DNA of 62,561 bases from a virus, in the IMG/VR virus record IMGVR_UViG_3300045993_000669, positions 1 to 62,561 of that record, one strand, 5' to 3'. Within the stretch, counting starts at the first letter, position 1; every line of letters starts with the position of its first letter. A program made the position numbers and the translations under genes. Of the stretch, positions 40,220 through 62,561 are shown piece by piece. The notes under the pieces were generated by a model, which saw only the letters and a list, made by a program, of their open reading frames with translations, was not told where the DNA came from and ran no database searches.

Positions 40220-40688
40220 ACTTGGCAGGCGAGGCATGGCGCGTCCACGCAAGGCGGGGAGCGGCGCGGTAAGGACGGGCTGGGCGGGGCATGGCAGGCC
40301 AGGACGGGCAAGGCGTGGAGTGGCCGGGATCGGCTCGGAACGGCTGGGCAGGGCAGGCGTGGAACGGCAGGGTGCGGCATGGCATGTCGCGGCGGGTCTA
40401 GGCGAGGCAGGCGAGGTTGGGCACGGCTAGGACGGGCGTGGAGTGGCATGGCGAGGCTGGGCAGGCGTGGCGGGTCGGGGCACGGTCGGGCGGGGCGCGG
40501 CTGGGACGGGCGCGGCAGGGCAGCCAAGGCGGGGCATGGCAACGCACGGCGAGGCAGGCACGGAATGGCAGGGCGAGCAAGGGCACGGTGGGTCAAGGCA
40601 TGGCAGGGCAGGCGAGGAGTGGCACGGCAAGGATCGGCAAGGAATGGCACGGCGCGGCGCGGCTCGGCAGGCTTGGATCGGGAACGGC
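40220..40688 (+). repeat. Pentamer-periodic GGC array 2
   Basis: About 470 bases of degenerate NGGCN units in near-perfect 5-base phase, for example GGCAA GGCGT GGAGT GGCCG, then GGCAG GGCAG GCGTG. Long open frames exist in all six frames because of the composition, not because of coding. It runs straight into the start of the 40689 gene. It is the longest of the three arrays and is bracketed by sites at 39738 and 41122. Confidence 0.8.
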
Positions 40689-45947: not shown

Positions 45948-46087
45948 TGCTTTTTCTCCCGATCCGCCGCCAGATCGCCGCCGCGCCGGGCAACGGCCAG
46001 ATCGGCGTTGATGACGGTCGCGATCAAAAACGCCACGGCGCCAACTGCGAACCCGCCAGCGGCAACCGCGAGATAGAACCCGTTCAT
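45944..46087 (-). CDS. 47-residue membrane protein
   Basis: MNGFYLAVAAGGFAVGAVAF followed by LIATVINADLAVARR: one membrane segment and a charged tail ending EKKQ. Starts and stops overlap its neighbours (ATGA on both sides). It was too short for the usual ORF cutoff. Function unknown. Confidence 0.5.
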   Translation of the reverse strand: MNGFYLAVAAGGFAVGAVAFLIATVINADLAVARRGGDLAADREKKQ

Positions 46088-46140
46088 GACTTGTCTCCGT
46101 GCGGGCAGGCGTGCGGTTCTACGTCGTCGATCTTGGCCAA
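46084..46140 (-). CDS. 18-residue peptide MAKIDDVEPHACPHGDKS
   Basis: TTG start 46140, with the perfect ribosome site AAGGAGG eight bases upstream. Its stop overlaps the next ATG (ATGA). It also lies inside the 3' end of the 46119-46544 gene in another frame. The strong site makes it a credible coupled leader or micropeptide. Confidence 0.4.
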   Translation of the reverse strand: MAKIDDVEPHACPHGDKS

Positions 46141-46544
46141 TTTGTTTCCTCCTTCGTTACAGGGTCGATGAAGTAAATCGCGGCGCCGAACAGGATCAGC
46201 GGGAAACGGCGGGCGAGGATATCCATCCATCGGTTGACGCGAGAGTGGCTTTGAACGCGGTATTTCCGTTCCCGCCATCGATCGTCTGGCTCGCATCGGT
46301 ATCGCCACACGAGCCGGTAGACCACGTTGCCGGGGCCTGGGCCGTTCCCGCCGCCCTCCCCATAATCCCGCGCCTCGGCCTCGGTGCCGAACCCGCCCAC
46401 GCTGCTTGCCATGTTGGCATCGCTGTCCATCAGCACGCTTTCCCAAAGCCCGTCCGCCCGCTGGCGCACCACCACCCGCCATTCGGGATTGCCGGCCAGC
46501 GGCTCCGTCCAGTGCCGGTTGCGGGATGCGCGATCGGGCGTCAC
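46119..46544 (-). CDS. Hypothetical protein with C-terminal membrane segment
   Basis: 141 residues. HWTEPLAGNPEWRVVVRQRA, an Asp/Gly-rich middle, and a C-terminal hydrophobic RRFPLILFGAAIYFIDP. The frame is read from ATG 46544. It may be a tail-anchored membrane protein. Function unknown. Confidence 0.45.
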   Translation of the reverse strand: MTPDRASRNRHWTEPLAGNPEWRVVVRQRADGLWESVLMDSDANMASSVGGFGTEAEARDYGEGGGNGPGPGNVVYRLVWRYRCEPDDRWRERKYRVQSHSRVNRWMDILARRFPLILFGAAIYFIDPVTKEETNWPRSTT

Positions 46545-47068
46545 GGCGATTGGCCGTTGATGAAATTGATCAGTAATTTGGCGTCGTCGATCATGTCGCC
46601 AATCGGCGTTTCGTTGTGGCTCCGAGTGGAGATTGCCAGGATCACGCGTTCCCGCAGCGCGCGGCGTTCCTGTTCATCGGAGGGCTGCATGGGTCCGTCC
46701 CGGTCGTAAGCAGATCGCAACGGCGGAATCGTGAAAGCGTTCGCCGGGGCCGGAGGGGCGGCCTTCATGGCCTCGGCTGCCACGCGGCGCCAAGCCGATT
46801 GGGCGGCGGCGCTGCGTTCAGACAACGTAAAATCCGGGCCTAAATAAATGCGGCTCAGCCTGTCCGCCAGGGCATCCAGGGGTTCATCGAGAGACCCAGC
46901 CGGTTCCGGGGCCTTCGCGGCGGCAACGGCGGCGTCGATCTTGGACTGGACAAGGCATGCCGTGCGGCGCCAGCGGTCGCGCTCTGATCCACTGACGCCG
47001 CGCCAAAACACCTCCGCGGGCGCCCAATGGTCTTCAAATAAATGTATCGCAAGTTGATCGGGGTCCAT
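46541..47068 (-). CDS. Hypothetical helical protein
   Basis: 175 residues starting MDPDQLAIHLFEDHWAPAEV. Charged and helical with no recognised domain; ends MIDDAKLLINFINGQSP. It overlaps the downstream gene by four bases and is two bases after its upstream neighbour. Function unknown. Confidence 0.5.
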   Translation of the reverse strand: MDPDQLAIHLFEDHWAPAEVFWRGVSGSERDRWRRTACLVQSKIDAAVAAAKAPEPAGSLDEPLDALADRLSRIYLGPDFTLSERSAAAQSAWRRVAAEAMKAAPPAPANAFTIPPLRSAYDRDGPMQPSDEQERRALRERVILAISTRSHNETPIGDMIDDAKLLINFINGQSP

Positions 47069-47069
47069 T

Positions 47070-47240
47070 TCACTCTCCTTCTGTCAGTTCGCGGGTCCAT
47101 GCCAGGAACGCGTCCAGCACCCCCGGCTCCATGAACACGATATGATCCCCCTCGGCCCGCGGCGCCCGTAGCTGGACCTGATAGCCGTCGAACGAAACGT
47201 ACAGCCCGTCGCCCAGGTATCGCTCTTCAAACGGTTTCAT
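47070..47240 (-). CDS. 56-residue protein (hypothetical)
   Basis: MKPFEERYLGDGLYVSFDGY begins this small protein, with strands QVQLRAPRA and a helix LDAFLAWTREL. It is acidic and ends TEGE. It was below the usual ORF cutoff. Spacing to neighbours (two bases) supports expression in the same operon. Function unknown. Confidence 0.5.
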   Translation of the reverse strand: MKPFEERYLGDGLYVSFDGYQVQLRAPRAEGDHIVFMEPGVLDAFLAWTRELTEGE

Positions 47241-47242
47241 GA

Positions 47243-47491
47243 TTATTCCTCTTCCACATCATCCCAGTGCCGGCGTTCGGAATGAACGCTCACCCGGAGC
47301 GATCCCATTGCCGCTGCCCAGGCCCGCCACACGGGCTGGTTCGCCCGCGTGAAAGCGTCCACCACGATCCGCACCAGCAGCCGGTCCAGCACGATCAAAC
47401 GCCGGATAGCCCGGACCCCAGCCAGGAACATCATCCCGTTCGCCACCAGCAAGGCAACGTTGGCGCCCAGCAGCACGGTCAGCCAATCCAT
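47243..47491 (-). CDS. Small membrane protein (hypothetical)
   Basis: 82 residues. A hydrophobic start (MDWLTVLLGANVALLVANGM) with a second hydrophobic stretch near residues 28-48, then a polar C-terminus ending VEEE. Overlaps the upstream gene by 13 bases. Function unknown. Confidence 0.5.
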   Translation of the reverse strand: MDWLTVLLGANVALLVANGMMFLAGVRAIRRLIVLDRLLVRIVVDAFTRANQPVWRAWAAAMGSLRVSVHSERRHWDDVEEE

Positions 47492-47733
47492 GGCCCGTCC
47501 CCCCCTTCGTCTCCCTCATCCTTGGCCGGCGGCGGCGGCGGCCGGTTGCGTGCCATCCATGCGGCATACCGTGTCAGCCACTCTTCCATTGGCTCCGTCA
47601 TCTTCACCTTGCCGTGCCAGATGCGGACGGCGGTTTGCCATTGCACGCCCATGGTCCCGGCGATCAGGCCCGGCCCGTGTCCGGTCTCCCGCAGCCGCGC
47701 GATCAGGTCGCGCTGGGGTGCGGGCGCCTTCAT
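47479..47733 (-). CDS. HTH-like small protein (hypothetical)
   Basis: 84 residues from ATG 47733. RDLIARLRETGHGPGLIAGT with VQWQTAVRIWHGKVKMTEPM is a helix-turn-helix pattern. The C-terminus is Pro-rich and acidic. The start is fixed by overlap with the upstream stop. Possible DNA-binding regulator. Confidence 0.5.
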   Translation of the reverse strand: MKAPAPQRDLIARLRETGHGPGLIAGTMGVQWQTAVRIWHGKVKMTEPMEEWLTRYAAWMARNRPPPPPAKDEGDEGGDGPWIG

Positions 47734-48056
47734 GGGCTGCCATCCCGCAGCCGCGGACACAGTTCGATCACGCGGCGTGCATCACGGGCGTTCATCAGGC
47801 TGATATGGCAGTCTTTCTTGCTCATCTGCATCATATCCGCCAATCGGCTGTAGGCGGCGCTCCTGCTCATGATTTTGTCTTTCCAGATCGGATCGAAGGC
47901 TGCATGTGCCTGTATCCGCGAAAAATGGGTTTCCCGGTCAACGAGCGGTTTCCCGCCCCAGGACCAAAGGCCGCAGCACTCCGCCTTGTCGCCAAACTTG
48001 CCCTTGCTGGCCTTGGCTGGGTTGCCGCACCTGGGGCAGATCGGCGGGGCTTTCAT
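47730..48056 (-). CDS. Zinc-finger-containing protein (DUF3268-like)
   Basis: 108 residues from ATG 48056. MKAPPICPRCGNPAKASKGK and ECCGLW form the zinc-binding Cys pairs. RIQAHAAFDPIWKDKIMSRS matches the conserved AHxxFDxxW region of zinc-finger-containing DUF3268 proteins. Function unknown. It is part of the leftward accessory operon. Confidence 0.6.
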   Translation of the reverse strand: MKAPPICPRCGNPAKASKGKFGDKAECCGLWSWGGKPLVDRETHFSRIQAHAAFDPIWKDKIMSRSAAYSRLADMMQMSKKDCHISLMNARDARRVIELCPRLRDGSP

Positions 48057-48451
48057 TCCTCGTCCTCTGGCCACGCGGCCAGCACCGGCAGGTCTTCGGG
48101 GTCCAGCGCGGCCGGTTTCTCGATCTCGTAATCCTCCAGGCTTTCCACGATGGTTTCCCATTCATCGATCAGCCGGAGCGTTTCCTCGCCCTTCGCGCTG
48201 TCCTGCCAGGTTTCGCTTTTGGCCTCGTATTGGTCGCGCCAGCCGTCGATGACGTTTTCCTTGGCCCACTCCCGCAGGTCCGATTGGGCGCCGTTGAACT
48301 CGGCCAACGCCTCCCGCAGCGGCGCGAATGCCTCTGTCACGGCGGCGTTGTATGCCTCCATGGCCTCGCTCAGTTCCTCGTATCGTGTGGATAGCTGGGC
48401 CGTCAGCGCGTCCAGATCGGCGCGGGCGGCCTTCTTCAATGTGAATGCCAT
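48053..48451 (-). CDS. Coiled-coil protein (hypothetical)
   Basis: 132 residues. Long helical coiled coil (LKKAARADLDALTAQLSTRY ... EAYNAAVTEAFAPLREALAE), acidic C-terminus DLPVLAAWPEDEE. Its leader carries AAGGAACGAAACG before the ATG, also used by the 48664 gene. Function unknown. Confidence 0.55.
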   Translation of the reverse strand: MAFTLKKAARADLDALTAQLSTRYEELSEAMEAYNAAVTEAFAPLREALAEFNGAQSDLREWAKENVIDGWRDQYEAKSETWQDSAKGEETLRLIDEWETIVESLEDYEIEKPAALDPEDLPVLAAWPEDEE

Positions 48452-48463
48452 CGTTTCGTTCCT

Positions 48464-48664
48464 TTATTGGCTAACCCATTCCGGTTCGCTGATTTCCGCG
48501 CCGTCCTCAAACCATTGGACCTTGCCGTCCGACCGCTCGAACTTGACCGTCCGGCCTTCCTGGCGGCTTTCACAAATCGCATCCCAGTCGATGCCATTGC
48601 CTAGCGATGCCTCGCCGCCGGCATCGTCATAGGCGTAGATCTGCCCGTTGATTCCCGCTCGCAT
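48464..48664 (-). CDS. Small beta-rich protein (hypothetical)
   Basis: 66 residues, MRAGINGQIYAYDDAGGEAS, then RTVKFERSDGKVQWFEDGAE. Strand-rich and acidic. The dispersed site at 48685 lies 20 bases upstream of its ATG, between the upstream gene's stop and this gene. Function unknown. Confidence 0.5.
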   Translation of the reverse strand: MRAGINGQIYAYDDAGGEASLGNGIDWDAICESRQEGRTVKFERSDGKVQWFEDGAEISEPEWVSQ

Positions 48665-48684
48665 CGTTTCGTTCCTTCGTTGGT

Positions 48685-48693
48685 AAATGATTT
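48685..48693 (+). promoter_or_regulatory. Dispersed AAATGATTT site 6 (most palindromic)
   Basis: GGTAAATGATTTACC at 48682-48696 is a perfect odd palindrome with a single central base. It is intergenic in the leftward operon, just upstream of the 48664 gene. Its copy inside that operon places it where a regulator could act on readthrough transcription. Confidence 0.65.
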
Positions 48694-49003
48694 ACCGGCC
48701 CACGGCGGCCCATTGTTCGTTGCGTTCGGCGGCCAGCCTGCGCTCGCATTCGGCCCCGTCGATCTCGCCCCGGTAATAGGCGTCATGGATCTGGCAGAAC
48801 CGGCCCGTGGCCCTGGTGCGGTCCCGCAGTCCGGACGCCTTGGCCCAGCCCGGATCGGACAAATCGGGGAACGCGGCGGCCACGGCATCCAGGGCCGAGA
48901 GGATCACCTGGATGCGCGCGGAGGCTGTCCCATCGCGCGATATCCCGGCCGATAGCCGTTCGTGGTCGAGCGCGGGCAAGAGGGTGTCGAGGATGCGTTT
49001 CAT
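48692..49003 (-). CDS. Hypothetical helical protein
   Basis: 103 residues. MKRILDTLLPALDHERLSAG, then RIQVILSALDAVAAAFPDLS, is mostly helical. It ends GRFCQIHDAYYRGEIDGAEC and a short basic tail. Its stop lies next to the 48685 site. Function unknown. Confidence 0.5.
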   Translation of the reverse strand: MKRILDTLLPALDHERLSAGISRDGTASARIQVILSALDAVAAAFPDLSDPGWAKASGLRDRTRATGRFCQIHDAYYRGEIDGAECERRLAAERNEQWAAVGR

Positions 49004-49075
49004 GGTTTGGTTTCCTGTTCCGTTTGGTTCAATTCCATCCGATTTTCACGGTGCCATTTCGGTTTCGTGTTCTGT

Positions 49076-49645
49076 TCAATCCGCCGCTTCCGGCCATTGC
49101 TCCGGGTCCCATTCGCACGGGACCAGATCCAGGACCGGGGCAGGCTCCCGTGCCGGCCCGGCCAGCCGATGGGAAACCGGCACGATCCGCCGCGGCATGA
49201 TTTCGCCCGACAGCACGGCGGGTGCGGCATAGTCCGGCCCCGCGGGCAGCACGCCGCCCGGCCAATAGCGGGCGCTGGGCATGTTCACGTCGCGGGGCGA
49301 TTTGCCCGACACCGAGAGGCCAACCCATCGCACCCACGCCGCGGGCAATCGTGCCTTCAGGCAATCGGCCGAGAGATACCAACGGGCGCCATGGTCCGCG
49401 ATCGCCAGCATGCGGGCCGCGGTGAATGCCGGCATGAAATCATCGAAACCCCGGAAGCTATTGCCCGGCTGCCGGATCGCGATTGCCCCTCCGGCCCGCC
49501 TGTGTGCTGCCAGGATGGCCCTGGCGTAGGCTACCTGATCCATGGAGGGGGCAAGGGCGATAGCCTGCCCTGGCGCATCCTGGGCAGGCTGGCGCAGCAA
49601 CGCGCCAAGCCCGGCCCCCGTGGCGGTCCAGATGCCGCCGGTCAT
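49076..49645 (-). CDS. Hypothetical protein
   Basis: 189 residues. MTGGIWTATGAGLGALLRQP, then PSMDQVAYARAILAAHRRAG and FMPAFTAARMLAIADHGARW. Mixed helix and strand, C-terminus acidic (CEWDPEQWPEAAD). It overlaps the upstream gene by four bases. Function unknown; it is in the same operon as the ParB-like gene. Confidence 0.5.
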   Translation of the reverse strand: MTGGIWTATGAGLGALLRQPAQDAPGQAIALAPSMDQVAYARAILAAHRRAGGAIAIRQPGNSFRGFDDFMPAFTAARMLAIADHGARWYLSADCLKARLPAAWVRWVGLSVSGKSPRDVNMPSARYWPGGVLPAGPDYAAPAVLSGEIMPRRIVPVSHRLAGPAREPAPVLDLVPCEWDPEQWPEAAD

Positions 49646-49866
49646 TTCAGGATTCCTTGCGCGACCATGCGACGTTCCGCCCGTGCGGCCGCATCCCGGC
49701 TGGCATAGGTAACGTCGTCCTGATCAGCGCAAACGATGCGCCATTTTTTGTCTGGATAATTCCGGCTGACGCAGCCAACGGCCCCCGAGGGGTAACGCAG
49801 ATTGTCCACGTACCACCCGCCATGGCGCCAACGGGAATACGCCGGAGTCCATGCCGCGGCGTTCAC
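49642..49866 (-). CDS. Small protein next to ParB-like gene (hypothetical)
   Basis: 74 residues. MNAAAWTPAYSRWRHGGWYV, then GCVSRNYPDKKWRIVCADQD. Trp/Arg-rich, with a helical basic C-terminus (RDAAARAERRMVAQGILK). It overlaps the ParB-like gene by four bases. Function unknown. Confidence 0.5.
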   Translation of the reverse strand: MNAAAWTPAYSRWRHGGWYVDNLRYPSGAVGCVSRNYPDKKWRIVCADQDDVTYASRDAAARAERRMVAQGILK

Positions 49867-50717
49867 GATACCGCCCCCCGGAGCGCATCGATTGCCGCAT
49901 CAAACCGGCCATCGATTTCCCCCGCATCCCATAGCCGCAACACTTCGCGGGCCGCATCCCCCACGGCTTTAATCGACAATGGCAGGGCAGCGGCCGGCCG
50001 AGGGGCAATCCCGGCCCCCCCGGAAAGCGAGGGGCTGCCGGCGCCAATGATTCCGCCCGATTGCCGGGCAGGCCGCACGGCCGCAACCTGGGTCGCGGTA
50101 GCCTTCCCCTTCGGCGATGCCGCGATCGCGGCCTGAAGCACGGCAGCGGCCCCCGTGCCATCCTGCCTGATTGCCGCTATCGCGACCGTTGGCGACACTG
50201 CCCCATCCCGGACCATTTCCCGCACCGCATGCGGTGCTTCCGCCAATTCCAACAGGCTGGCGACATGCTGCCGGGTGCGGCCGATCCGGGATGCGATCTG
50301 TGATTCCGGCCAGCCAAACGCCAATAGCCGTTTCACCACTTCCGCTTGTTCAAGCCCGGTAAGCGGAAGGCCGGAATTGCTGGTCAAGAGCATTAGCGCG
50401 CGATCCGCTTCATTGGTGCCGCGGGCTTCCGGCAGACACGGGATGGTTTGAATCTCGCACCCCTCAGCAATGGCCAGGCGGACCGCCAGCAAGCGGCAAT
50501 GGCCATCCGTCACAACCACCCGGTCCCCTTGCATGCGCACCGTCAGCGGCCGCGTTTGCATGAACCCGCCGGATTTGATGCTTTCCGCGATCGCCAGGAT
50601 ATGGTCCCGCACCGCGGGGGTATCCGACCGGACGTTAAAGCCCGGATCGATTTCGATAAGAGCGGGCGCCAGTTGATACATATCAACCCGTTTGCCCAGA
50701 TCTTGCAGCCTTGCCAT
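49863..50717 (-). CDS. ParB/KorB-like DNA-binding protein
   Basis: 284 residues from ATG 50717. Residues ~20-95 carry the ParB N-terminal core (PLTVRMQGDRVVVTDGHCRL, with DGHCRLLAVRLA the box II segment). Residues ~134-160 form a helix-turn-helix (WPESQIASRIGRTRQHVASL) like KorB/ParB. The C-terminal ~90 residues are Ala/Gly/Pro-rich, then helical. ParB relatives bind palindromic sites to partition DNA or to repress transcription. KorB acts at many dispersed odd palindromes; the AAATGATTT sites are a candidate target here. No ParA gene is visible nearby. Confidence 0.7.
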   Translation of the reverse strand: MARLQDLGKRVDMYQLAPALIEIDPGFNVRSDTPAVRDHILAIAESIKSGGFMQTRPLTVRMQGDRVVVTDGHCRLLAVRLAIAEGCEIQTIPCLPEARGTNEADRALMLLTSNSGLPLTGLEQAEVVKRLLAFGWPESQIASRIGRTRQHVASLLELAEAPHAVREMVRDGAVSPTVAIAAIRQDGTGAAAVLQAAIAASPKGKATATQVAAVRPARQSGGIIGAGSPSLSGGAGIAPRPAAALPLSIKAVGDAAREVLRLWDAGEIDGRFDAAIDALRGAVS

Positions 50718-50804
50718 TTTCCAATCCTTCCCAGGACATAAAGAAATCCGCCTATCGCGGCACGGCCAGGGGCAATCGCCCGCCCCTGGCATTGTCGAGA
50801 TACG
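50718..50804 (-). promoter_or_regulatory. Repeated hairpin leader A (ParB-like gene)
   Basis: In mRNA sense: a hairpin with arms GCCAGGGGC and GCCCCTGGC, then the conserved core TGCCGCGATAGGCG (plus-strand 50749-50762), then an extended ribosome site TCCTGGGAAGG (50726-50736 complement), then ATG 50717. The same order recurs in leaders B and C; D and E retain a hairpin and the extended ribosome site. Confidence 0.65.
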
Positions 50805-51917
50805 CTACGCCGCGGTTGCTGCCAGGACGCTGCCAAGGATATCGGCATCAGGCACGATCTCGGCCCGTGCCCGATGGGCCGGCACGTATTTGTATGATCC
50901 GTCCGCCATGGCGATCGCGCTTTCATACGCGGCCGTTTTGATCGCGGCGCCCGTGCCGAAAAATGCCGAATTGAGCCGATTGTCCTGATTTTTGGCGCGC
51001 GCGGAATGATCAACGTACTCTGTCACCGCGTTAAGCCAGCCCCAGACAGTGCCATCCGTGCCGGCCAATCCGGCCCCTTGTGCCGTGCCATCCAGGGCAA
51101 GACGCGCCACCGCCTGCACCGGGCTGGTCGCGCGCTTAATGTTCGCGGCCCGCTCGGCCGGCGACATATCGGACCATCCGGGAACAAAGATGCGGCCGGT
51201 ATGGTTGATCACTTCGGCATCTTCAATCTTGGTTTCCGCCATCCGGCGAAAATCGTTCATGGCATCGTCAAAGCGCGATCCTTCCGTGAGAAGGCCAAGC
51301 CCGGATTTCGCCGCGGCCGGATCGAACACGGAGCGATGGGCTACCCGCACGCTGGCCTTGTCCTTCCCGCGGGCAAGCGAAAGCGTGTTGTGGCAGACAA
51401 CCCGCACGGTTGTGTACCGGGCTTCCGTCGCGAGGCTGCCATCGGCCGATGTCGAAAGCAGGATGTAGCCCTTGAGCCTATCGGCCGGATCAGCGATCGC
51501 CGCGGATTCGCCCGTCGCCGCCAATGCCCAGAAACGCCGGCCGCCAAACAAGCAACCCGCCGTTTCCATTGTCATGCCCATCCGCTCCGTCAATTCGCGG
51601 AAAAATTCCATTACTTCCAATGGCTGCACAACCTGGTAGTCATCAGACACCACGCCAAGCGGGGCGGCCGTGTCACTGCGAAAGAGGACAACCCGGTCGT
51701 CCACGCTTGCCCAGCTGGCCGGATCGTCCGCGGATATCCCGTCCACGGCATAGCGGACCCGCGACCGGAGAATGCTCCAATCGAAGCCGGCCGCCGCGAT
51801 CCATTCCTCAATCGCGGCCCCGGCTGCCAGGTGGTTGCCAAGGCCATGCCAGCCAACCGCCCCCGTGTACGCCATTTCCGCGCTGCCATTGGCGCGGATG
51901 CTGATTTCGTCCGCCAT
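50805..51917 (-). CDS. DUF932-family protein
   Basis: 370 residues from ATG 51917 (GGGGAATTG upstream). TGAVGWHGLGNHLAAGAAIE, VVSDDYQVVQPLEVMEFFRE and RVVCHNTLSLARGKDKASVR match the DUF932/TIGR03299 phage and plasmid family. Its biochemical role is unknown. It is immediately upstream (in transcription) of leader A and the ParB-like gene, so it is likely in the same regulatory or partition context. Confidence 0.75.
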   Translation of the reverse strand: MADEISIRANGSAEMAYTGAVGWHGLGNHLAAGAAIEEWIAAAGFDWSILRSRVRYAVDGISADDPASWASVDDRVVLFRSDTAAPLGVVSDDYQVVQPLEVMEFFRELTERMGMTMETAGCLFGGRRFWALAATGESAAIADPADRLKGYILLSTSADGSLATEARYTTVRVVCHNTLSLARGKDKASVRVAHRSVFDPAAAKSGLGLLTEGSRFDDAMNDFRRMAETKIEDAEVINHTGRIFVPGWSDMSPAERAANIKRATSPVQAVARLALDGTAQGAGLAGTDGTVWGWLNAVTEYVDHSARAKNQDNRLNSAFFGTGAAIKTAAYESAIAMADGSYKYVPAHRARAEIVPDADILGSVLAATAA

Positions 51918-51919
51918 GA

Positions 51920-52141
51920 TCAATTCCCCCGGATAATCAATTGCTGCACCGCGTCGCGGGCCGCATCCGTCGCCAGCCGGGCCGCATCCATCGCCGCGGC
52001 ATGACGGCTGCCCTGCGGCCGGCCGTTCCTGGCATCGTCCTGCAATTCGGCGAGCGTGATTTTCCAGGGTTCGCCTACCCGGCGTTCATTCTCAATCGCG
52101 AATAGCAGCGCGGAAACCGCCCTGATTTCATCCGTGTTCAT
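51920..52141 (-). CDS. Small helical protein (hypothetical)
   Basis: 73 residues from ATG 52141, the start fixed by leader B. Helical and Ala-rich (DAARLATDAARDAVQQLIIR), acidic near the N-terminus. Function unknown; it sits between leader B and the DUF932 gene. Confidence 0.5.
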   Translation of the reverse strand: MNTDEIRAVSALLFAIENERRVGEPWKITLAELQDDARNGRPQGSRHAAAMDAARLATDAARDAVQQLIIRGN

Positions 52142-52229
52142 CGTCCGTCCTTTCCCAAAGATCAGTTGAAACCCGCGCCTATCGCGGCATTGCCGGGCGC
52201 CATGCCCCCGGCATTGTAGCAATAGGCGA
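52142..52229 (-). promoter_or_regulatory. Repeated hairpin leader B
   Basis: In mRNA sense: arms GCCGGG and CCCGGC enclosing a GGCATGGCG loop, then TGCCGCGATAGGCG (plus-strand 52176-52189), then a diverged ribosome region (TTTGGGAAAGG) before ATG 52141. The core is identical to leaders A and C, the hairpin arms are different in sequence but the same in position. Confidence 0.6.
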
Positions 52230-52733
52230 TTAGGCTGCCGTTTCCTCCCGTTCCTTCGCGCCGCGGACAAACCGGCCGCAGAAAGGACTATTTTGGCCAA
52301 TCCATGTATTGACCAGGAACTTGGCCACCAGCTTGCCCCCGCGGCTAATCGTCAAATAGAGGCAATCCGACGAAAATCCGGCATCCGACATGCGTCCCGT
52401 CGTCATGGCATCCATGTAGAACGTGAAGCCCAAAATATCGCCGGCCCGCAATGCAGCAACCGCCGTGTCCGTCACGTCCAAGCATTCGCCGCCCGGCGAG
52501 AAATACAGATGGGCGATGCAATCGACCTCGCGGACGCTCATGCGGTACGAGTGAGACAAAATGACCTCGGCCGGCACCAGATGATGTTGATCGCATGCGA
52601 AAGGATCACGCTCGGATTTCGTCGCGTTCTTGACCGCGTAAACAGAGGATGTCCCGTCCTTCCGATCCATGCGAACCACAATCGTGTTGCATTTCCGAAG
52701 CGCAGCCACGTCAATTTTTGATAACTCAGCCAT
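52230..52733 (-). CDS. Hypothetical protein in ParB operon
   Basis: 167 residues, MAELSKIDVAALRKCNTIVV. Beta-rich start (VVRMDRKDGTSSVYAVKNAT), several His/Asp residues (FACDQHHLVPAEVILSHSYR), then LYLTISRGGKLVAKFLVNTW. It may bind metal, but no family is recognised. Leader C precedes it. Confidence 0.5.
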   Translation of the reverse strand: MAELSKIDVAALRKCNTIVVRMDRKDGTSSVYAVKNATKSERDPFACDQHHLVPAEVILSHSYRMSVREVDCIAHLYFSPGGECLDVTDTAVAALRAGDILGFTFYMDAMTTGRMSDAGFSSDCLYLTISRGGKLVAKFLVNTWIGQNSPFCGRFVRGAKEREETAA

Positions 52734-52818
52734 TGTTCTACCCTTCCCAGGATCAGTGTTTTCCGCCTATCGCGGCATTCCGAGGCGCCGGTTGCCCCTC
52801 GGATTGGCGCGGCAGCCG
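52734..52818 (-). promoter_or_regulatory. Repeated hairpin leader C
   Basis: In mRNA sense: arms CCGAGG and CCTCGG, then TGCCGCGATAGGCG (plus-strand 52764-52777), then TCCTGGGAAGG (plus-strand 52742-52752), then ATG 52733. Same order and spacing as leader A. Confidence 0.6.
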
Positions 52819-53031
52819 TCAATCGTCAATCGCGGCCGTGTCCTGATAGGTCGCGAAATGGTCCGGCCCGTTGTGCAGTTCGATCCGGCCATGCCGGCCA
52901 AAAACGATCCGCGTGACCGGAACGCCGCCGCTGGTGATGCCGATCGATGCCACGGCCGCGGCCCCGACTTTCAACCGGCCCGGCAGATATGCGCGGCGCA
53001 AATCGGACGCGGAAACCATGATAATTGCCAT
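52819..53031 (-). CDS. Small beta-rich protein (hypothetical)
   Basis: 70 residues from ATG 53031. MAIIMVSASDLRRAYLPGRL, then ASIGITSGGVPVTRIVFGRH. Mostly strands, acidic end. Leader D precedes it. Function unknown. Confidence 0.5.
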   Translation of the reverse strand: MAIIMVSASDLRRAYLPGRLKVGAAAVASIGITSGGVPVTRIVFGRHGRIELHNGPDHFATYQDTAAIDD

Positions 53032-53076
53032 GTCATCATCCTTCCCAGGATAGGGGGGCAATGCCCGCCCCGGTTG
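53032..53076 (-). promoter_or_regulatory. Short hairpin leader D
   Basis: In mRNA sense: GGGGC-GGGCATT-GCCCC hairpin followed by TCCTGGGAAGG (plus-strand 53040-53050) and ATG 53031. The CCGCGATAGGC core of A-C is missing; only a CTATCC remnant is present. Confidence 0.5.
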
Positions 53077-53157
53077 TCAGATCCGGCTGGTGATTTCCAG
53101 GATGAGAAGCGGAATAACCGCGGCCCCCAGAATGATCAGTAAAATTGCCGCTTCCAT
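53077..53157 (-). CDS. 26-residue membrane peptide
   Basis: MEAAILLIILGAAVIPLLIL-EITSRI, one membrane helix. Leader E just upstream has TCCTGGGAAGG (plus-strand 53167-53177) and a CCGGC/GCCGG hairpin. It is the first gene of the leftward operon. Likely real because of the strong, repeated ribosome-site element. Confidence 0.45.
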   Translation of the reverse strand: MEAAILLIILGAAVIPLLILEITSRI

Positions 53158-53252
53158 GATGCCGTTCCTTCCCAGGAAACCCGGCTGCGCCATCCGCCGC
53201 CGGTGAACAGAACGTATGACATTGTTGTCGATCGTTCTACAGACAATCGCGC
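53158..53252. promoter_or_regulatory. Divergent intergenic region with TTGTC/GACAA dyad
   Basis: TTGTC (53225-53229) and GACAA (53242-53246) form an inverted repeat with 12 bases between, in the divergent gap between 53157 and 53253. It is an operator-like spacing for a small repressor. Clear -35/-10 pairs are not obvious. It drives the ParB operon in one direction and the zinc-ribbon gene in the other. Confidence 0.4.
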
Positions 53253-53777
53253 ATGGCAGCCATGCAAACCGCGCGGGGCGAAAATGATTTACCAATCGGA
53301 CCCATGCTTACGGAATACCGCATCGATGGCCAGCTGTTCACGGCCGTCGCGACAACCCAGCACAAACCGCCGCCGCCAGCCCGGCCCTTCTCAACAATCA
53401 CCTGGCAGTCCGTTTGCCCCCAATGCGAGCAGCCGTTCACGTTCACGCGGAAATGGCGATGCTACGCGCCAACCCAGCACGGAATCAGGCGATGTGAACC
53501 CTGCTTAGACAAAACTCGCGCGAGAAATGGCAGGGTCCCAAACAAACAGGCCAATAAGGCTGTCCTAAAATTCCGGGAAACCGCACCCGTCCCTCGCACC
53601 CCTGAACAGTTCAGACTCAACGCGCCAACCGCCACAGCAAACACCCGGAAAAGAACAGGCCGCGTTCACGTCGCGCAATTTGTGCCTCGCACGGCGCCCC
53701 CGGCAGCTGATCAGACTGCGGCGGTTGCCTCTCGCAAGCCTCGTGCGCCGCGTCCAGGTGGCGTGTTCAGTGATTGA
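53253..53777 (+). CDS. Zinc-ribbon protein (hypothetical)
   Basis: 174 residues. ENDLPIG near residue 10 is encoded by the site at 53282. The zinc-binding region is VCPQCEQPFTFTRKWRCYAP with RRCEPC. Basic, Pro-rich C-terminus ends APRPGGVFSD. Nucleic-acid binding is likely. It is divergent from the ParB operon. Confidence 0.55.
   Translation: MAAMQTARGENDLPIGPMLTEYRIDGQLFTAVATTQHKPPPPARPFSTITWQSVCPQCEQPFTFTRKWRCYAPTQHGIRRCEPCLDKTRARNGRVPNKQANKAVLKFRETAPVPRTPEQFRLNAPTATANTRKRTGRVHVAQFVPRTAPPAADQTAAVASRKPRAPRPGGVFSD
53282..53290 (+). promoter_or_regulatory. Dispersed AAATGATTT site 7
   Basis: Context CGAAAATGATTTACC, 125 bases from the start of the leftward ParB operon and inside the divergent zinc-ribbon gene. 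It encodes ENDLPI. Its closeness to the ParB operon start suits autoregulation. Confidence 0.6.
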
Positions 53778-53898
53778 CGGCCGAGTCTGTACCGCATGCC
53801 GGGTGCGATCGATCGCCGTTTCCGCTCTCGGCCGGCCGTCATACAGAACCATGATGCGTCATCAAACGACCATTTGATCGCGTGGCCACCTTTTCTGT

Positions 53899-53907
53899 AA
53901 ATGATTT
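53899..53907 (+). promoter_or_regulatory. Dispersed AAATGATTT site 8
   Basis: Context TGTAAATGATTTCAA, about 20 bases before array 3. It is in non-coding sequence, with flanks that match the GGY...RCC dyad less well on the right. Confidence 0.5.
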
Positions 53908-53924
53908 CAATGGCTTGTGCGGCA

Positions 53925-54000
53925 TTGCCTGTCCTACCCTGCCCAGCCTGCCATTCCGCCCCCCCCGGCCTGCCCTGGCCTCGGCCGGCCGCCCTCGCCG
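53925..54000 (-). repeat. Pentamer-periodic array 3 (inverted)
   Basis: The + strand reads CC-rich units every five bases (TGCCT GTCCT ACCCT GCCCA GCCTG CCATT), so the NGGCN motif is on the opposite strand. Shorter and more degenerate than arrays 1 and 2. Confidence 0.55.
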
Positions 54001-54219
54001 CGGCGCCGGTTCCGCCCGGGCTTTGGGACGCCGACGCTGGGAGAAAAGGAGCGCCCCTCATATTCCCGCCAAAAAAAATCCGAGTTTGATACCGTAATTC
54101 ATTGGGTGTCGTCGGCTTGGCGCTGCGTGGATGGCTGTGTTTGATCGCTCGGCTGGGCGGGCGATTGGCTTGGCTTGTGCGGGTGGGTTGTAGAGCCGCG
54201 CGCTTCGCTAAGATCGCGG

Positions 54220-54263
54220 AAGGATGAGGTTGTTATGGCGCTTCGCGCAATTCTCTCATCCTT
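54220..54263 (+). other. Nested hairpin with downstream T-run
   Basis: AAGGATGAG (54220-54228) pairs with CTCATCCTT (54255-54263). Between them GCGC-TTC-GCGC could form an inner stem. A CTTCTCTCCTTTTTTGG follows at about 54267. It may be an RNA element or weak terminator. Confidence 0.4.
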
Positions 54264-54476
54264 AATCCTTCTCTCCTTTTTTGGAGTGAGGACATAGGGC
54301 GTTGTTAGCCCTGGGCCGGGTCGAGCCTGACAACGAACGCGCTCCCCGTGGGTGGGGACTTTGTTCGGGCCTGCAAGCGGTGGAAGTGCCAATGCCGCTC
54401 GGTAGCCACGTGCCGCTTGGTGTCCGGTGCCGTTCGGGGGCTGCCGCCGGGGGTTATGCCCGGCGTTCGGACACGA

Positions 54477-54725
54477 TCAGGCGTTTTCTTTTCGCAGAGG
54501 GACCCAGGGGAACCCGCCTTTGTGGGCGTGCGCGACTGAGCAGAATGTGTGGACTTTCAGGCCTTCCCGGCCGTCCGGGTATCCTGTTGTGAGGGTGACG
54601 GTTTCCTTTTGGAAGCCGCAGACATCGCATTTTCGGGCGCCCGGTACGGGCGTGCGGGTGGTGATCTTTCCGGCGTCGATGGCCCGGGCCTTTTTGGCCT
54701 TGGCCCAATCGCGGCGGGCTACCAT
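54477..54725 (-). CDS. Small zinc-finger-like protein (hypothetical)
   Basis: 82 residues. MVARRDWAKAKKARAIDAGK, then KCDVCGFQKETVTLTTGYPD and VHTFCSVAHAHKGG. Cys and His positions suit one zinc ion. ATG overlaps the upstream gene by seven bases. Function unknown. Confidence 0.55.
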   Translation of the reverse strand: MVARRDWAKAKKARAIDAGKITTRTPVPGARKCDVCGFQKETVTLTTGYPDGREGLKVHTFCSVAHAHKGGFPWVPLRKENA

Positions 54726-55111
54726 TGGCCCCGGCCCCCGGCTGCCTTCGCCCGGTAGTCTTTGATCCAGGTGAGGGGTGGCTTGGGCTTGCGGCCCTTG
54801 GCGCGCTGTGAGGCGGCGTAGCGGGCATAGGTGAGCGCGAAGCCGGATGCCGCCGCTGCGTCCTCTGTGCCGTCCATGGCCGCGCTGGCGGGGTCGATGC
54901 GCCTGACGGGACCGGCGGCGCCGAATGTGCCCGGCACATATTTGCCCTTGGCCTTCCCCCCGGCCTTTGGCCGCTGCGGGTTGTGCTTTGGCTGGATGAT
55001 CTTGGCTTTGGGCAGGAAGATGCGGAGCGCGCCGGCGTTTTTGATGAGGGCCTTGCGGCGGGCCTCGATCTGGTCTGCTTCGGAGGCTTGCGTAGAGCGG
55101 GCTGCGTTCAT
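54719..55111 (-). CDS. Basic small protein (hypothetical)
   Basis: 130 residues from ATG 55111. Rich in Lys/Arg/Ala (IEARRKALIKNAGALRIFLP), then KPKPPLTWIKDYRAKAAGGR. The in-frame extension to 55261 covers the small-RNA region and is excluded. Possibly DNA-binding. Divergent from 55313. Confidence 0.5.
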   Translation of the reverse strand: MNAARSTQASEADQIEARRKALIKNAGALRIFLPKAKIIQPKHNPQRPKAGGKAKGKYVPGTFGAAGPVRRIDPASAAMDGTEDAAAASGFALTYARYAASQRAKGRKPKPPLTWIKDYRAKAAGGRGQW

Positions 55112-55225
55112 ATTCTGACGCCTGATGCTTGTTTTTCGGGCATCGGCGTTTCCCTGGAAAGTGACGCCGATGCCCAATCCTTCAGAGGAACCCGCCCGGC
55201 CGTCAAGCCCGGGCGGTTTCTTTTT
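55088..55225 (+). ncRNA. Predicted small RNA with promoter and terminator
   Basis: A -35/-10 pair TTGCGT-N17-TATTCT (55088-55116) is followed by a strong hairpin, GGGCATCGGCGT (55138-55149) with ACGCCGATGCCC (55164-55175), and then an intrinsic terminator CCGCCCGG (55192-55199) with CCGGGCGG (55209-55216) and a TTTCTTTTT tract. The likely transcript is about 100 nt, starting near 55123. It lies between divergent genes and, on the + strand, is not coding. Confidence 0.55.
55192..55225 (+). terminator. Rho-independent terminator
   Basis: An 8-bp perfect stem CCGCCCGG/CCGGGCGG with a nine-base loop is followed by nine bases TTTCTTTTT. It is the clearest terminator in the window. It would end the predicted small RNA. 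Confidence 0.7.
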
Positions 55226-55312
55226 GCCCATTTCCCCCATTCTTCCCTTCCCCCTGGGCAATTTCGGTAGTAACGGATGGCCGTATCAACGGGATAGGGC
55301 GAGGCGCGGGCC

Positions 55313-55996
55313 ATGGGCACCAACGGGATTCCCGATAAGAAACAGGATGCGGCCGCGCCGCGTGCTTCCCGTGCCTGCTTCCGCCCCGCCGACGCCGCGG
55401 ATCGTTCAAATCTTTGTGAACGGTTCGATGCCCTGATGCGGCGGCCCAGGCCGCAGCCGGCGCCTTCATCTATCCCTCGGGCCGAGCGGCCGCCATCGGG
55501 ATACACGGCGGACGAAATGGCCAGGATGCTGGCCGATTGGGAGAGGAAGCTGTACGCCCAGCCCGTGGCGCCCCCGCGCATCCGCGGCACAAACGAGGGA
55601 CGGACGATCACGATCTTCGATGAGGCCGATCTGATCGAACGGCCCCGCGATCCGGGGAAAAGCACGTTCGCCGCGGACCTTGGCAAACTGAATACGATCG
55701 CAGCCATGCGCGAGATCGGCCGCTTGGCCGAATGGCAGCGCGTCCACGATGAGATGCGGCGGATCGAGCAGGACATGCGGGCGATCGCGGAAGCCGCGGC
55801 GGAACGGCCCACGCTGGAAAGCATTACCCAGGCGGTCAACCGGGATTTTGCGCGGCGTCATCCCCTGCCGCGGACGAACCCCATGATGGAACTGATCGAG
55901 AAGGACCAGCGGCCGCCCACGAAATCCCATCCCTTCCCCGCCCGCGCCTTGCAGCAGGACAAGCCGGACATCGGATTGAGAACGCCCTGGCAATGA
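55313..55996 (+). CDS. Hypothetical protein (start of late leader genes)
   Basis: 227 residues. First gene of the rightward run that leads to the terminase. Arg/Pro-rich N-terminal half, then a helical domain (EIGRLAEWQRVHDEMRRIEQ) and the terminal GLRTPWQ. The family is not recognised. Overlaps the next gene by four bases. Confidence 0.5.
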   Translation: MGTNGIPDKKQDAAAPRASRACFRPADAADRSNLCERFDALMRRPRPQPAPSSIPRAERPPSGYTADEMARMLADWERKLYAQPVAPPRIRGTNEGRTITIFDEADLIERPRDPGKSTFAADLGKLNTIAAMREIGRLAEWQRVHDEMRRIEQDMRAIAEAAAERPTLESITQAVNRDFARRHPLPRTNPMMELIEKDQRPPTKSHPFPARALQQDKPDIGLRTPWQ

Positions 55997-56247
55997 CGGA
56001 TGCCCCATTCCCGGCCCGCGCCCTCCGGCATATCGAAACAGACATCGGCCTCAGATTTGGCGGGGGAAACCAGCACATGACCTTTGCCGAACGCCGCTGG
56101 CAGCACGCATCCGAAATGCTGGCCGTTCTGAAAGAGCAGCACCCAGGCCAGATCATCGGCGATCAGCCAACGCAACAAATGATCCGGGACGCGGCGATAC
56201 TCGCGATCGGCGAAATGCTGGACGAAATCCTCGCGAGGATCGGATGA
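55993..56247 (+). CDS. Hypothetical protein
   Basis: 84 residues. HMTFAERRWQHASEMLAVLK, then QQMIRDAAILAIGEMLDEIL: compact helical protein. Four-base overlaps on both sides. Function unknown. Confidence 0.5.
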   Translation: MTDAPFPARALRHIETDIGLRFGGGNQHMTFAERRWQHASEMLAVLKEQHPGQIIGDQPTQQMIRDAAILAIGEMLDEILARIG

Positions 56248-56468
56248 AGCAATATCTGTCCTCAGACCTCAAGCCGGGGACCTTCAGCGATGACCCCGGC
56301 CCGAATCGCGTTGACCCCGGCCCCGGACCACGGACGGACCGGGATAAACTGGCCAGGATCATTTCCGATTTCTATTCGTATGAAGCCCCTGGCAGGCTGT
56401 GCCTGAGCAAAGCCGACTATCTCGCGGCTGACGCGGCGATCGCGTTCTTTGAGAGAACGAAGCCATGA
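56244..56468 (+). CDS. Hypothetical protein
   Basis: 74 residues. A flexible Asp/Pro/Gly-rich start (GPNRVDPGPGPRTDRDKLAR) and a helical end (ADYLAADAAIAFFERTKP). Overlaps its neighbours by four bases. Function unknown. Confidence 0.5.
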   Translation: MKQYLSSDLKPGTFSDDPGPNRVDPGPGPRTDRDKLARIISDFYSYEAPGRLCLSKADYLAADAAIAFFERTKP

Positions 56469-56680
56469 GGCACGGGGCATCCCGGAACGGCTCAATCGGT
56501 GCGCGCGGCGTCCGCGCCACGGAGAGGCGAATCCGGGAATACACGGCGGCGCTATCGTCCGAAGATGAAACCGAAGCCCAATATGCGCGGGAATATCTGG
56601 CCAGCATCGGGTGGCAGGCGCCAACCCGCGAGGACCCGGGGGCTGTGCGCCTGATCGCCGGCCCCAAGCCAAAGCCATGA
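56465..56680 (+). CDS. Hypothetical protein
   Basis: 71 residues. RATERRIREYTAALSSEDET, then AQYAREYLASIGWQ: a helical, charged, small protein with a Pro-rich end. Coupled to the next gene by ATGA. Function unknown. Confidence 0.5.
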   Translation: MRHGASRNGSIGARGVRATERRIREYTAALSSEDETEAQYAREYLASIGWQAPTREDPGAVRLIAGPKPKP

Positions 56681-56892
56681 CCCCCGAAGCCAGGATCGCC
56701 CGGGCGCTCGAACTGCTGCTGCCCCTCGCGACCGCCGCCATCCCGGCCGACTACGACGTGCGATGCCGCGCGCTCGATCACGCGATAACACTCCATGGCG
56801 GCTGCCAAAGCGCCGACTTGGTGGTGTCCGAAAGCAAAAAGTTCCTCGCCTTCCTGCTGAACGTGCCGGACATGCCGAAGGAGGAATCGTAA
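56677..56892 (+). CDS. Hypothetical protein (paralog of 57119)
   Basis: 71 residues from ATG 56677. The C-terminal part (DYDVRCRALDHAITLHGG...SKKFLAFLLN) is homologous to DYEARCLALDIAARVHKE...SGRFLAFLLA in the gene at 57119. Helical, one Cys each at matching positions. Function unknown. Confidence 0.6.
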   Translation: MTPEARIARALELLLPLATAAIPADYDVRCRALDHAITLHGGCQSADLVVSESKKFLAFLLNVPDMPKEES

Positions 56893-56897
56893 GCGGT

Positions 56898-57122
56898 ATG
56901 GAAAAACGCCCTGACCCGATATCGACGACATTCCAGGTCTCTTCCCCCGACTACGAGATAACGCTGATCTCAATGACGGACCCGCAAATCGCCCGCCTGA
57001 AAATCGTTCTGCTGAATACCAATCAGGAATTTTCCGTCGATCTGTCGGAACGGGCCTGCAAGCTGATCGGCGGCAACCTCCTGGAAATGGGCGCGCAGAT
57101 GGAATGGGATGACGATAAATGA
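56898..57122 (+). CDS. Hypothetical protein
   Basis: 74 residues. MEKRPDPISTTFQVSSPDYE, then IARLKIVLLNTNQEFSVDLS, ends MGAQMEWDDDK. Mixed strand-helix protein between the two paralogs. Function unknown. Confidence 0.5.
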   Translation: MEKRPDPISTTFQVSSPDYEITLISMTDPQIARLKIVLLNTNQEFSVDLSERACKLIGGNLLEMGAQMEWDDDK

Positions 57123-57460
57123 GCGGCATCGGCGGAACAGAGGAAGAGCGGGACAAGCGGATCGCCGAGGCCGAATTTATGCGCGAGCGCGGCCTATGGG
57201 CGCCGGGGGCCGGGCCGTGGAACGATATCGCGGCCGACGCCATAGCCTCAATCAGCCGCGATCCCGGAACAGCGGAACCCGATCCCGCTCTGCCGCACGA
57301 TTACGAAGCCCGCTGCCTCGCCTTGGATATCGCGGCCCGTGTCCACAAGGAATACGGCGATGCCGATGCGATCCTCGAAGACTCCGGACGCTTCCTGGCC
57401 TTCCTGCTGGCAAAGCCCCCGCCGCCCCTGCCGGGGGAGCGGGGGCGGGACGATGGCTGA
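57119..57460 (+). CDS. Hypothetical protein (paralog of 56677)
   Basis: 113 residues. A longer N-terminal helical part (EEERDKRIAEAEFMRERGLW) precedes the shared C-terminal domain described at 56677. The tandem duplication with divergence suggests an expanded family. Overlaps the next gene by eight bases. Confidence 0.6.
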   Translation: MSGIGGTEEERDKRIAEAEFMRERGLWAPGAGPWNDIAADAIASISRDPGTAEPDPALPHDYEARCLALDIAARVHKEYGDADAILEDSGRFLAFLLAKPPPPLPGERGRDDG

Positions 57461-57863
57461 ACACACGATCAAATCCGTGGACCGGGATGTCCGGTTCGAG
57501 TGCATCGTCATGCGGCAAGGGAATAGCCATGACATTGAGTTCCTGCGCCGGTTCTCCGCCACCCGCTGGGAAATTAAGCGCGGCGATGTCTGGTGGAACC
57601 TTCACGCAGCAGAAAACCACGAGCGCGCACGTCAGGATTATATGGATCGGCTCGCTCCATCCAAGTGGTCCGTCTACCGCTGGGTTCTGTATTCCCAGCG
57701 GGAGGTCTGCGATCTCGTGACCCTTCACGGCGGCGTGGCCGATGTCCATTTCAAACGCTTCCCAACCGGCGAATGGGAAATCAACCACAGCGACGAAACC
57801 TGGGTCCCCTGGCCGGAACACGCCTGCGAAGAAGCACTGTATCAGGCATACATCAAGGAATGA
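57453..57863 (+). CDS. Hypothetical protein
   Basis: 136 residues from ATG 57453. Trp/Tyr-rich (RWEIKRGDVWWNLHAAENHE), then SKWSVYRWVLYSQREVCDLV. It may be a compact beta-rich domain. Function unknown. Confidence 0.5.
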   Translation: MAEHTIKSVDRDVRFECIVMRQGNSHDIEFLRRFSATRWEIKRGDVWWNLHAAENHERARQDYMDRLAPSKWSVYRWVLYSQREVCDLVTLHGGVADVHFKRFPTGEWEINHSDETWVPWPEHACEEALYQAYIKE

Positions 57864-58096
57864 TCACCATCGCGGTCATGAGGGACGGGGATATCTGCGT
57901 TGAAACCGTCAGCGGAAAGCGGGAACGCAAAGCCGCCGCCACCGGATTGTTGGACTGGTCCGAAATGACGCCGGAGCATTGGTCCGCCCTGAACGCATAT
58001 TGGATCGCCAAGACACCCGAGGCAGAGAAGGCCGCCTACGCCCGCATGATGGAACTCGGGTTCCCGGATGCCTATTGGGCCGAATGGGAAGATTGA
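57860..58096 (+). CDS. Hypothetical protein
   Basis: 78 residues. MITIAVMRDGDICVETVSGK, then AYWIAKTPEAEKAAYARMME. Small mixed protein; ATG follows AAGGA and overlaps the upstream stop. Function unknown. Confidence 0.5.
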   Translation: MITIAVMRDGDICVETVSGKRERKAAATGLLDWSEMTPEHWSALNAYWIAKTPEAEKAAYARMMELGFPDAYWAEWED

Positions 58097-62304: not shown

Positions 62305-62561
62305 CCGGATCAAACATGAACACTGGTTCAGGTGTAAAGCCTGCGCGAATCGGTTCCACGTCACCCGTCTGACCGCCGATCCGGCCAAGGTGAAAACGCC
62401 CAAATGCCCGCGCAAGTCCTGCGGCGGCAAATCCCGCGAAAGCCATGTCCCCGATATCGGCTTCGACGCCGCCGAGGGCAAAGCACCCGCCGTGGGAGGC
62501 TCCCTGTCCGGACGCGCCTTCGATTATGCCATGCAGACCACCATGGCCGATCACGGCATGA
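62297..62561 (+). CDS. Zinc-finger protein (3' end outside window)
   Basis: Starts TTG 62297 with GGAGG nine bases upstream and the preceding stop TGA overlapping. The protein begins SDRIKHEHWFRCKACANRFH and matches the left-end gene from residue ~10 on. In the left copy the N-terminus is SDDRPIYAHWFRCKSCANRF, so the two ends are variants of one gene. Confidence 0.75.
   Translation, partial: MSDRIKHEHWFRCKACANRFHVTRLTADPAKVKTPKCPRKSCGGKSRESHVPDIGFDAAEGKAPAVGGSLSGRAFDYAMQTTMADHGM
62435..62561. repeat. 127-bp exact repeat (right copy)
   Basis: Identical to 140-266. The upstream 130 or so bases here and at 1-139 are homologous but differ, including a short variable stretch in the N-terminal codons. 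Confidence 0.9.

Follow-up and report, generated by a model that had tools for sequence, protein, structure and literature searches.

Covarying Shine-Dalgarno Hairpins in the Leaders of a Phage ParB Operon as Possible Structured Translational Operators

Introduction

Several genes of a phage ParB operon are preceded by leaders that resemble one another, which raises the question of whether one cis-acting element is reused along the operon and, if so, whether it acts as RNA or as DNA. The operon is present in a virus record of 62561 bp (the window, i.e., the whole stretch of DNA that was analysed), which harbors genes for phage head/packaging, tail, DnaB-helicase, and recombination. The two ends of the record (26–266 and 62321–62561) show 93% identity over 241 bases, as if the contig overlapped itself with some variation, and a GC-rich stretch at 40233–40688 contains diverged tandem repeats with units of 15–29 bases.

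The ParB operon is located on the minus strand and is read leftward. Its first cistron is a 26-aa ORF (53077–53157), which encodes a hydrophobic peptide (MEAAILLIILGAAVIPLLILEITSRI) and has a full leader of its own. It is followed by the genes for a 70-aa protein (52819–53031), a 167-aa protein (52230–52733), a 73-aa protein (51920–52141), a DUF932/TIGR03299 protein (50805–51917), and a ParB-like protein (49863–50717; phrog_1033, HTH_ParB, KorB domain), after which come two coupled genes. Family searches with the first four products gave no match. The start of the DUF932 gene immediately adjoins the upstream stop. A short CxxC (zinc-ribbon-like) protein is encoded divergent from the operon (53253–53777, plus strand), and a similar product is found at the equivalent place in the related phage described below (L243, about 6950–7400, plus strand).

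Shine-Dalgarno Hairpins at the Uncoupled Cistrons

Four of the leaders had been described in an initial annotation as carrying an identical extended ribosome site, TCCTGGGAAGG, and all the exact copies were indeed found there (50726–50736, 52742–52752, 53040–53050, and 53167–53177). The element is, beyond this, itself a hairpin, UCCU-GGGA-AGGA, with the Shine-Dalgarno (SD) sequence in its 3′ arm, and it covaries: the leader at 52141 holds a fifth copy, UCUUU-GGGA-AAGGA (TCTTTGGGAAAGG), in which the loop and all pairs are kept, most pairs with other letters. The five hairpins, all on the minus strand, are UUCCU-GGGA-AGGAA (53165–53178) in the leader of the 26-aa ORF at 53157, UAUCCU-GGGA-AGGAUG (53037–53052) in that of the gene starting at 53031, AUCCU-GGGA-AGGGU (52740–52753) in that of the gene starting at 52733, UCUUU-GGGA-AAGGA (52148–52161) in that of the gene starting at 52141, and GUCCU-GGGA-AGGAU (50724–50737) in that of the ParB-like gene starting at 50717. 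They end about 4–7 nt 5′ of the start codon. Over the five leaders, 25 of 25 cells are paired and three of the five pairs are changed on both sides, whereas sliding the partner drops the pairing to 48–72%.

The SD hairpin was found at all five uncoupled (gapped) cistrons of the operon and at none of the three coupled ones, the DUF932 gene among them, whose starts lie at the preceding stop or inside it. Applied to three other phages, the same generic criterion gives an SD hairpin at 3 of 86 annotated starts; at that rate, the chance of five out of five is ∼5e-8, with the starts taken as independent and the criterion set after the hairpin had been seen. When the window was scanned for SD hairpins in general, with any loop of 4–6 and any stem of at least 4 allowed, a single recurrent family emerged; it has five members, is restricted to the ParB operon, and was the sole family of four or more. 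Among 878 dinucleotide shuffles, six yielded a family, in no case with more than three members. The hairpins themselves have only weak stability, at about −5 to −6 kcal/mol, and their folding does not surpass that of shuffles (z −1.0 to +0.9); the one at 53157 is not the predicted minimum fold in its short context.

Upstream Hairpins of the Leaders

A GC-rich hairpin is located further 5′ in each leader. In the leaders of the genes starting at 50717, 52141, and 52733, it stands just 5′ of a 14-nt core, TGCCGCGATAGGCG, which occurs in three exact copies, all on the minus strand (50749–50762, 52176–52189, and 52764–52777), with no further exact copy in the 62561-bp record. As the initial annotation had it, the arms of these inner hairpins differ between the copies while their pairing is kept: in the three aligned leaders, 87% of the cells pair in the fixed register as against 33–43% with the partner slid, and three inner pairs are changed on both sides. 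The upstream hairpins, which had been noted in these three leaders only, were also found without the core in the other two, at 53181–53203 in the first leader (CCGGC-G-GCG-GAUGG-CGC-A-GCCGG, minus strand) and at 53055–53071 in the 53031 leader (GGGGC..GCCCC, minus strand). The latter is nearly identical to the inner hairpin of the ParB leader (GGGGCGGGC[G]ATTGCCCC), and the leaders may therefore sometimes exchange segments. An extra hairpin is present upstream of the first leader at 53208–53239 (minus strand; GUAGAACGAUCGACAACAAUGUCAUACGUUCUG), and the related phage also folds one there.

The Homologous Operon of a Related Phage

A related phage was identified through a terminase search. It is represented by two contigs, G001 of 53 kb and G002 of 41 kb, which are identical to each other over the 21.9 kb surrounding the terminase (L243 and L244). 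The ParB protein of G001 is 59% identical to that of the window over 215 residues, and the terminase is 63% identical. The homologous ParB operon of this phage has five uncoupled cistrons, with genes mostly unrelated to those of the window, each with an SD hairpin of the type AGC-GARRG-GCU. The first three are GAGC-GAAAG-GCUC, CUGAGC-GAGGG-GCUUGG, and CUGAGC-GAGGG-GCUUAG, and the other two are GCAAGC-GAAAG-GUUUGC and CAGC-GAGGG-GCUG. Pairing is present in 26 of the 30 cells, the two outermost pairs failing in the two leaders with 4-bp stems, and three of the six pairs are changed on both sides. No AGC-GARRG-GCU hairpin was found outside the ParB operon within the 53 kb of the relative.

A longer hairpin with a GNUGG-type pentaloop is located 5′ of each of these SD hairpins (five of five leaders, 17–20 nt between the loops), a count to be read against about seven such hairpins expected per genome by chance and a loop pattern picked after the leaders had been seen. 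The upstream hairpin of the first leader, CCGGC-G-CGC-GAUGG-GCG-A-GCCGG, occupies the place homologous to that at 53181–53203 in the window. The two first leaders share ACCGGCG-NNN-GAUGG-NNN-AGCCGG, where NNN is GCG/CGC in the window but in the relative CGC/GCG; three consecutive pairs are thus inverted between the two phages, with both arms changed. Alignment of whole leaders from both phages using MAFFT was poor. The genes that follow the leaders are mostly non-homologous between the two phages, so the leaders do not simply belong to their genes. Covariation is thus present in the related phage as well, and the proposal of a reused cis-acting RNA under structural selection is borne out by the SD hairpins, which covary in both phages, and by the two-hairpin layout, which recurs in the homologous operon.

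The Leaders as Candidate Translational Operators

Compensated stems are not required by a DNA-binding or purely sequence role, and the covariation in the ten SD hairpins of two phages, with five leaders each, lends good support to an RNA-level structure of the leaders. The loops are fixed in the window (GGGA) and nearly fixed in the relative (GARRG) and differ between the phages, which suggests recognition by a factor differing between them. It is proposed, with a probability of roughly one half, that the leaders are translational operators, modular and present at each uncoupled cistron, which are read by a common, most likely phage-encoded, trans factor. Each leader would consist of a GC-rich hairpin and then a small weak hairpin holding the SD in its loop and 3′ arm, and would act at the RNA level. 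The trans-acting factor would read the fixed loop on its short stem and, by binding the SD hairpin, would set ribosome access to all the uncoupled cistrons together, while DUF932 and the genes after ParB, which are coupled, would be carried along passively through translational coupling. In three of the five leaders, the 14-nt core and its imperfect inverted repeat may form an added sequence-specific element. Coordinated translational control by a phage factor, as had been suggested initially, is likely as far as can be judged from the sequences. The SD is mostly in the loop in the relative as against the 3′ arm in the window; simple sequestration would therefore not be common to both, and the sequence by itself does not tell how translation would be affected.

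Candidate binders are the 167-aa protein, which is conserved, and the ParB-like protein. No RNA-binding regulator was identified in the analysis; the 167-aa protein has a homologue with ∼40% identity in the operon of the related phage, and it has no family match and a structure model of low confidence (pLDDT 49). The more specific proposal that a phage RNA-binding protein of a new family, with the 167-aa protein (52230–52733) as the candidate, reads the five ribosome-binding-site (RBS) hairpins as an operon-wide regulon, the protein and the loop having co-changed between the phages, is doubtful. A cognate protein of this kind, if there is one, would represent a new regulator that binds RNA and has more than one natural specificity.

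It is possible, if rather improbable, that no trans factor is involved and that the leaders are self-sufficient structured RBS modules, with the upstream hairpin serving to insulate or stabilise the message beyond the stop and the SD hairpin serving to keep initiation at a uniform rate. The occurrence of the leaders only at gapped cistrons and their absence from coupled starts agree with such modules, as do the GC-rich, stable upstream hairpins with their variable sequence. However, the behaviour of the loops within and between the phages points to recognition rather than mere shape, and the ParB operon is the sole user of such hairpins in either genome.

The Core as an Apparently Sequence-Conserved Element

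The core had initially been noted as able to form a small hairpin, GCC-GCGATA-GGC. This fold is possible for the core alone (GCC-GCGAUA-GGC, −5.1 kcal/mol predicted); prediction for the whole leader (−33 to −37 kcal/mol), in contrast, places the core opposite an imperfect 5′ arm, in a helix that encloses the inner hairpin. The extended hairpins so predicted, all on the minus strand, span 52764–52818 in the 52733 leader (imperfect outer helix, inner hairpin 52779–52803), 52176–52228 in the 52141 leader (outer helix CGCCUAUUGC/GCGAUAGGCG, inner hairpin 52191–52213), and 50749–50806 in the ParB leader (imperfect outer helix, inner hairpin 50764–50791), each including its copy of the core. Within the outer helix, the 14 letters of the core are invariant, and the imperfectly paired 5′ partner arm has changes that are one-sided or pair-breaking. 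No clear core was found in the leaders of the relative. Structural selection is hence unsupported for the core itself, whereas it stands for the SD and inner hairpins, in which changes are compensated; conservation appears to act on the sequence of the core and on the structure of the inner hairpin. A segment in one leader of the relative, TGCTGCGATAGCA (L243:5050–5065, minus strand), resembles the core and has a similar place, and may be due to chance.

An invariant core in three copies, an imperfect 5′ arm, and one-sided variation would be expected of a protein site and not of an RNA helix, and a ParB/KorB-like protein is encoded in the operon itself. The core and its imperfect inverted repeat might on these grounds be a DNA site, for instance an internal promoter, or an operator or other site bound by the ParB/KorB-like protein, as proposed for the ESAS elements of cluster K phages (discussed below). 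This is considered unlikely, as the inner hairpin covaries, the core copies occur in sense orientation only and are similarly placed on the 5′ side of the start codon, a search around the operon (46000–58000) revealed no sigma-70-like site, and the SD hairpins would be left unexplained.

Comparison With Known Systems

The nearest analogue found, close in layout, is the SAS/ESAS system of cluster K mycobacteriophages. The SAS, known since 2011, is a repeated SD-containing 13-mer, GGG-ATAGGAG-CCC, of unknown function, and about half of its copies have an upstream imperfect inverted repeat, the ESAS (PMC3203893); the ESAS of Adephagia hold putative SigA promoters (PMC11373665). Both systems have, within one phage, a short repeat that contains the SD and directly precedes several non-structural genes belonging to different families; they also have in common a hairpin-like symmetry and a subset with an upstream imperfect inverted repeat, the consensus differing between related groups. 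The distance of the SD hairpins from the start codons (about 4–7 nt) is within the about 3–9 bp that characterise the SAS at several non-structural genes. However, the sequences are unrelated: the 13-bp SAS consensus GGGATAGGAGCCC, with two deviations at most, matches the window at only two places, both away from these leaders, and the related phage nowhere, and the SD-hairpin scan finds the SAS in Anaya only when relaxed. The stems of the SAS are invariant, whereas those of the present leaders covary, and the SAS has 11–19 copies as against one operon of five leaders. Likewise, the ESAS is a 17-bp imperfect inverted repeat with a SigA-like promoter, for which RNA pairing was argued against by its authors, whereas here the imperfect inverted repeat is found in three leaders, with no sigma-70-like site in 46000–58000, and the hairpins covary. 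Owing to the absent consensus, the invariant SAS stems, and the lack of a promoter-like site, the leaders are taken to resemble the SAS in general layout, in an unrelated phage lineage, and not to be members of it by sequence. What they add is stem variation that reveals the base pairing and, in this other lineage, two related phages with the same layout and different loops, by which a shared structured RBS as an operon-wide control becomes directly testable.

MS2-type coat-protein hairpins are phage translational operators. The present leaders share with these, and with the T4/RB69 gene 43 operator hairpin, whose loop is kept while the operator length differs (PMC3014915), a small RBS hairpin with a conserved loop, found here as covarying SD hairpins in two phages. 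Operators of the gene 43 or MS2 type control one gene each, whereas five cistrons carry the same element here. Many cistrons are controlled at the translation start by T4 RegA and RegB, through unstructured sites or cleavage (PMC3014915). RegA is one phage protein that represses many mRNAs at their initiation regions (PMC3014915), at sites with no RNA structure and a variable sequence; the leaders, in contrast, are structured with fixed loops. RegB cuts GGAG/U in the translation initiation regions of early T4 genes (PMC3014915), and the hairpins, being at translation starts of a putative non-structural operon, could by analogy be processing or decay sites at which a host or phage ribonuclease inactivates the leaders. 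This is very unlikely, given that the loops GGGA and GARRG have no common GGAG and that RNA structure protects against RegB (PMC3014915). Least plausible, and already disfavoured, is a single duplicated segment without selected function, for which the near-identical 53031 and ParB leader hairpins might speak, as segments may be exchanged, but the leaders are mostly unlike outside the core and the loops, the stem changes are compensated, and the related phage repeats the architecture in different letters.

In fourU/ROSE RNA thermometers, a weak 3′ hairpin pairing the SD stands behind a more stable 5′ hairpin, and the leaders of the window have this likeness; they differ in that the SD of the relative is mostly in the loop and hence not sequestered, and in having no Rfam match. 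No Rfam covariance model reached the gathering score anywhere in the window, and the matches obtained in 50000–54500 were all at chance level. The CsrA/RsmA motif is ANGGA in a hairpin loop at the SD. The loop contexts are UGGGAA in the window and CGARRGG in the relative, with no shared ANGGA in the loops. The CsrA, RegB, thermometer, and promoter readings were ranked below that of translational operators.

Searches for Further Cases

Relatives of the ParB and 167-aa proteins in the viral and genome collections were confined to the G001/G002 phage, and the 27 loci with DUF932 relatives had no homologues of the other operon proteins. An exact scan of IMG/VR for the core and for a gapped core-plus-SD pattern returned only chance hits among the matches listed. 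The ParB operon was absent from 36 terminase-related records, 0.6 Mb of whose sequence was without any SD-hairpin family, as were the other ParB-bearing phages and plasmids examined. In a total of ∼2.84 Mb of other phage DNA, two more three-member families turned up: that of L064 lies within genes, and that of L302 is in real leaders. The latter record is a distant terminase relative, in which three leaders carry CGAAAGGTGA and variable 5′ arms; at positions 631, 1686, and 4086 (plus strand), an invariant CGAAAGGTGAGATC is mostly paired by the variable 5′ arms. These leaders are possibly another system of the same kind, and are noted here as a weak lead.
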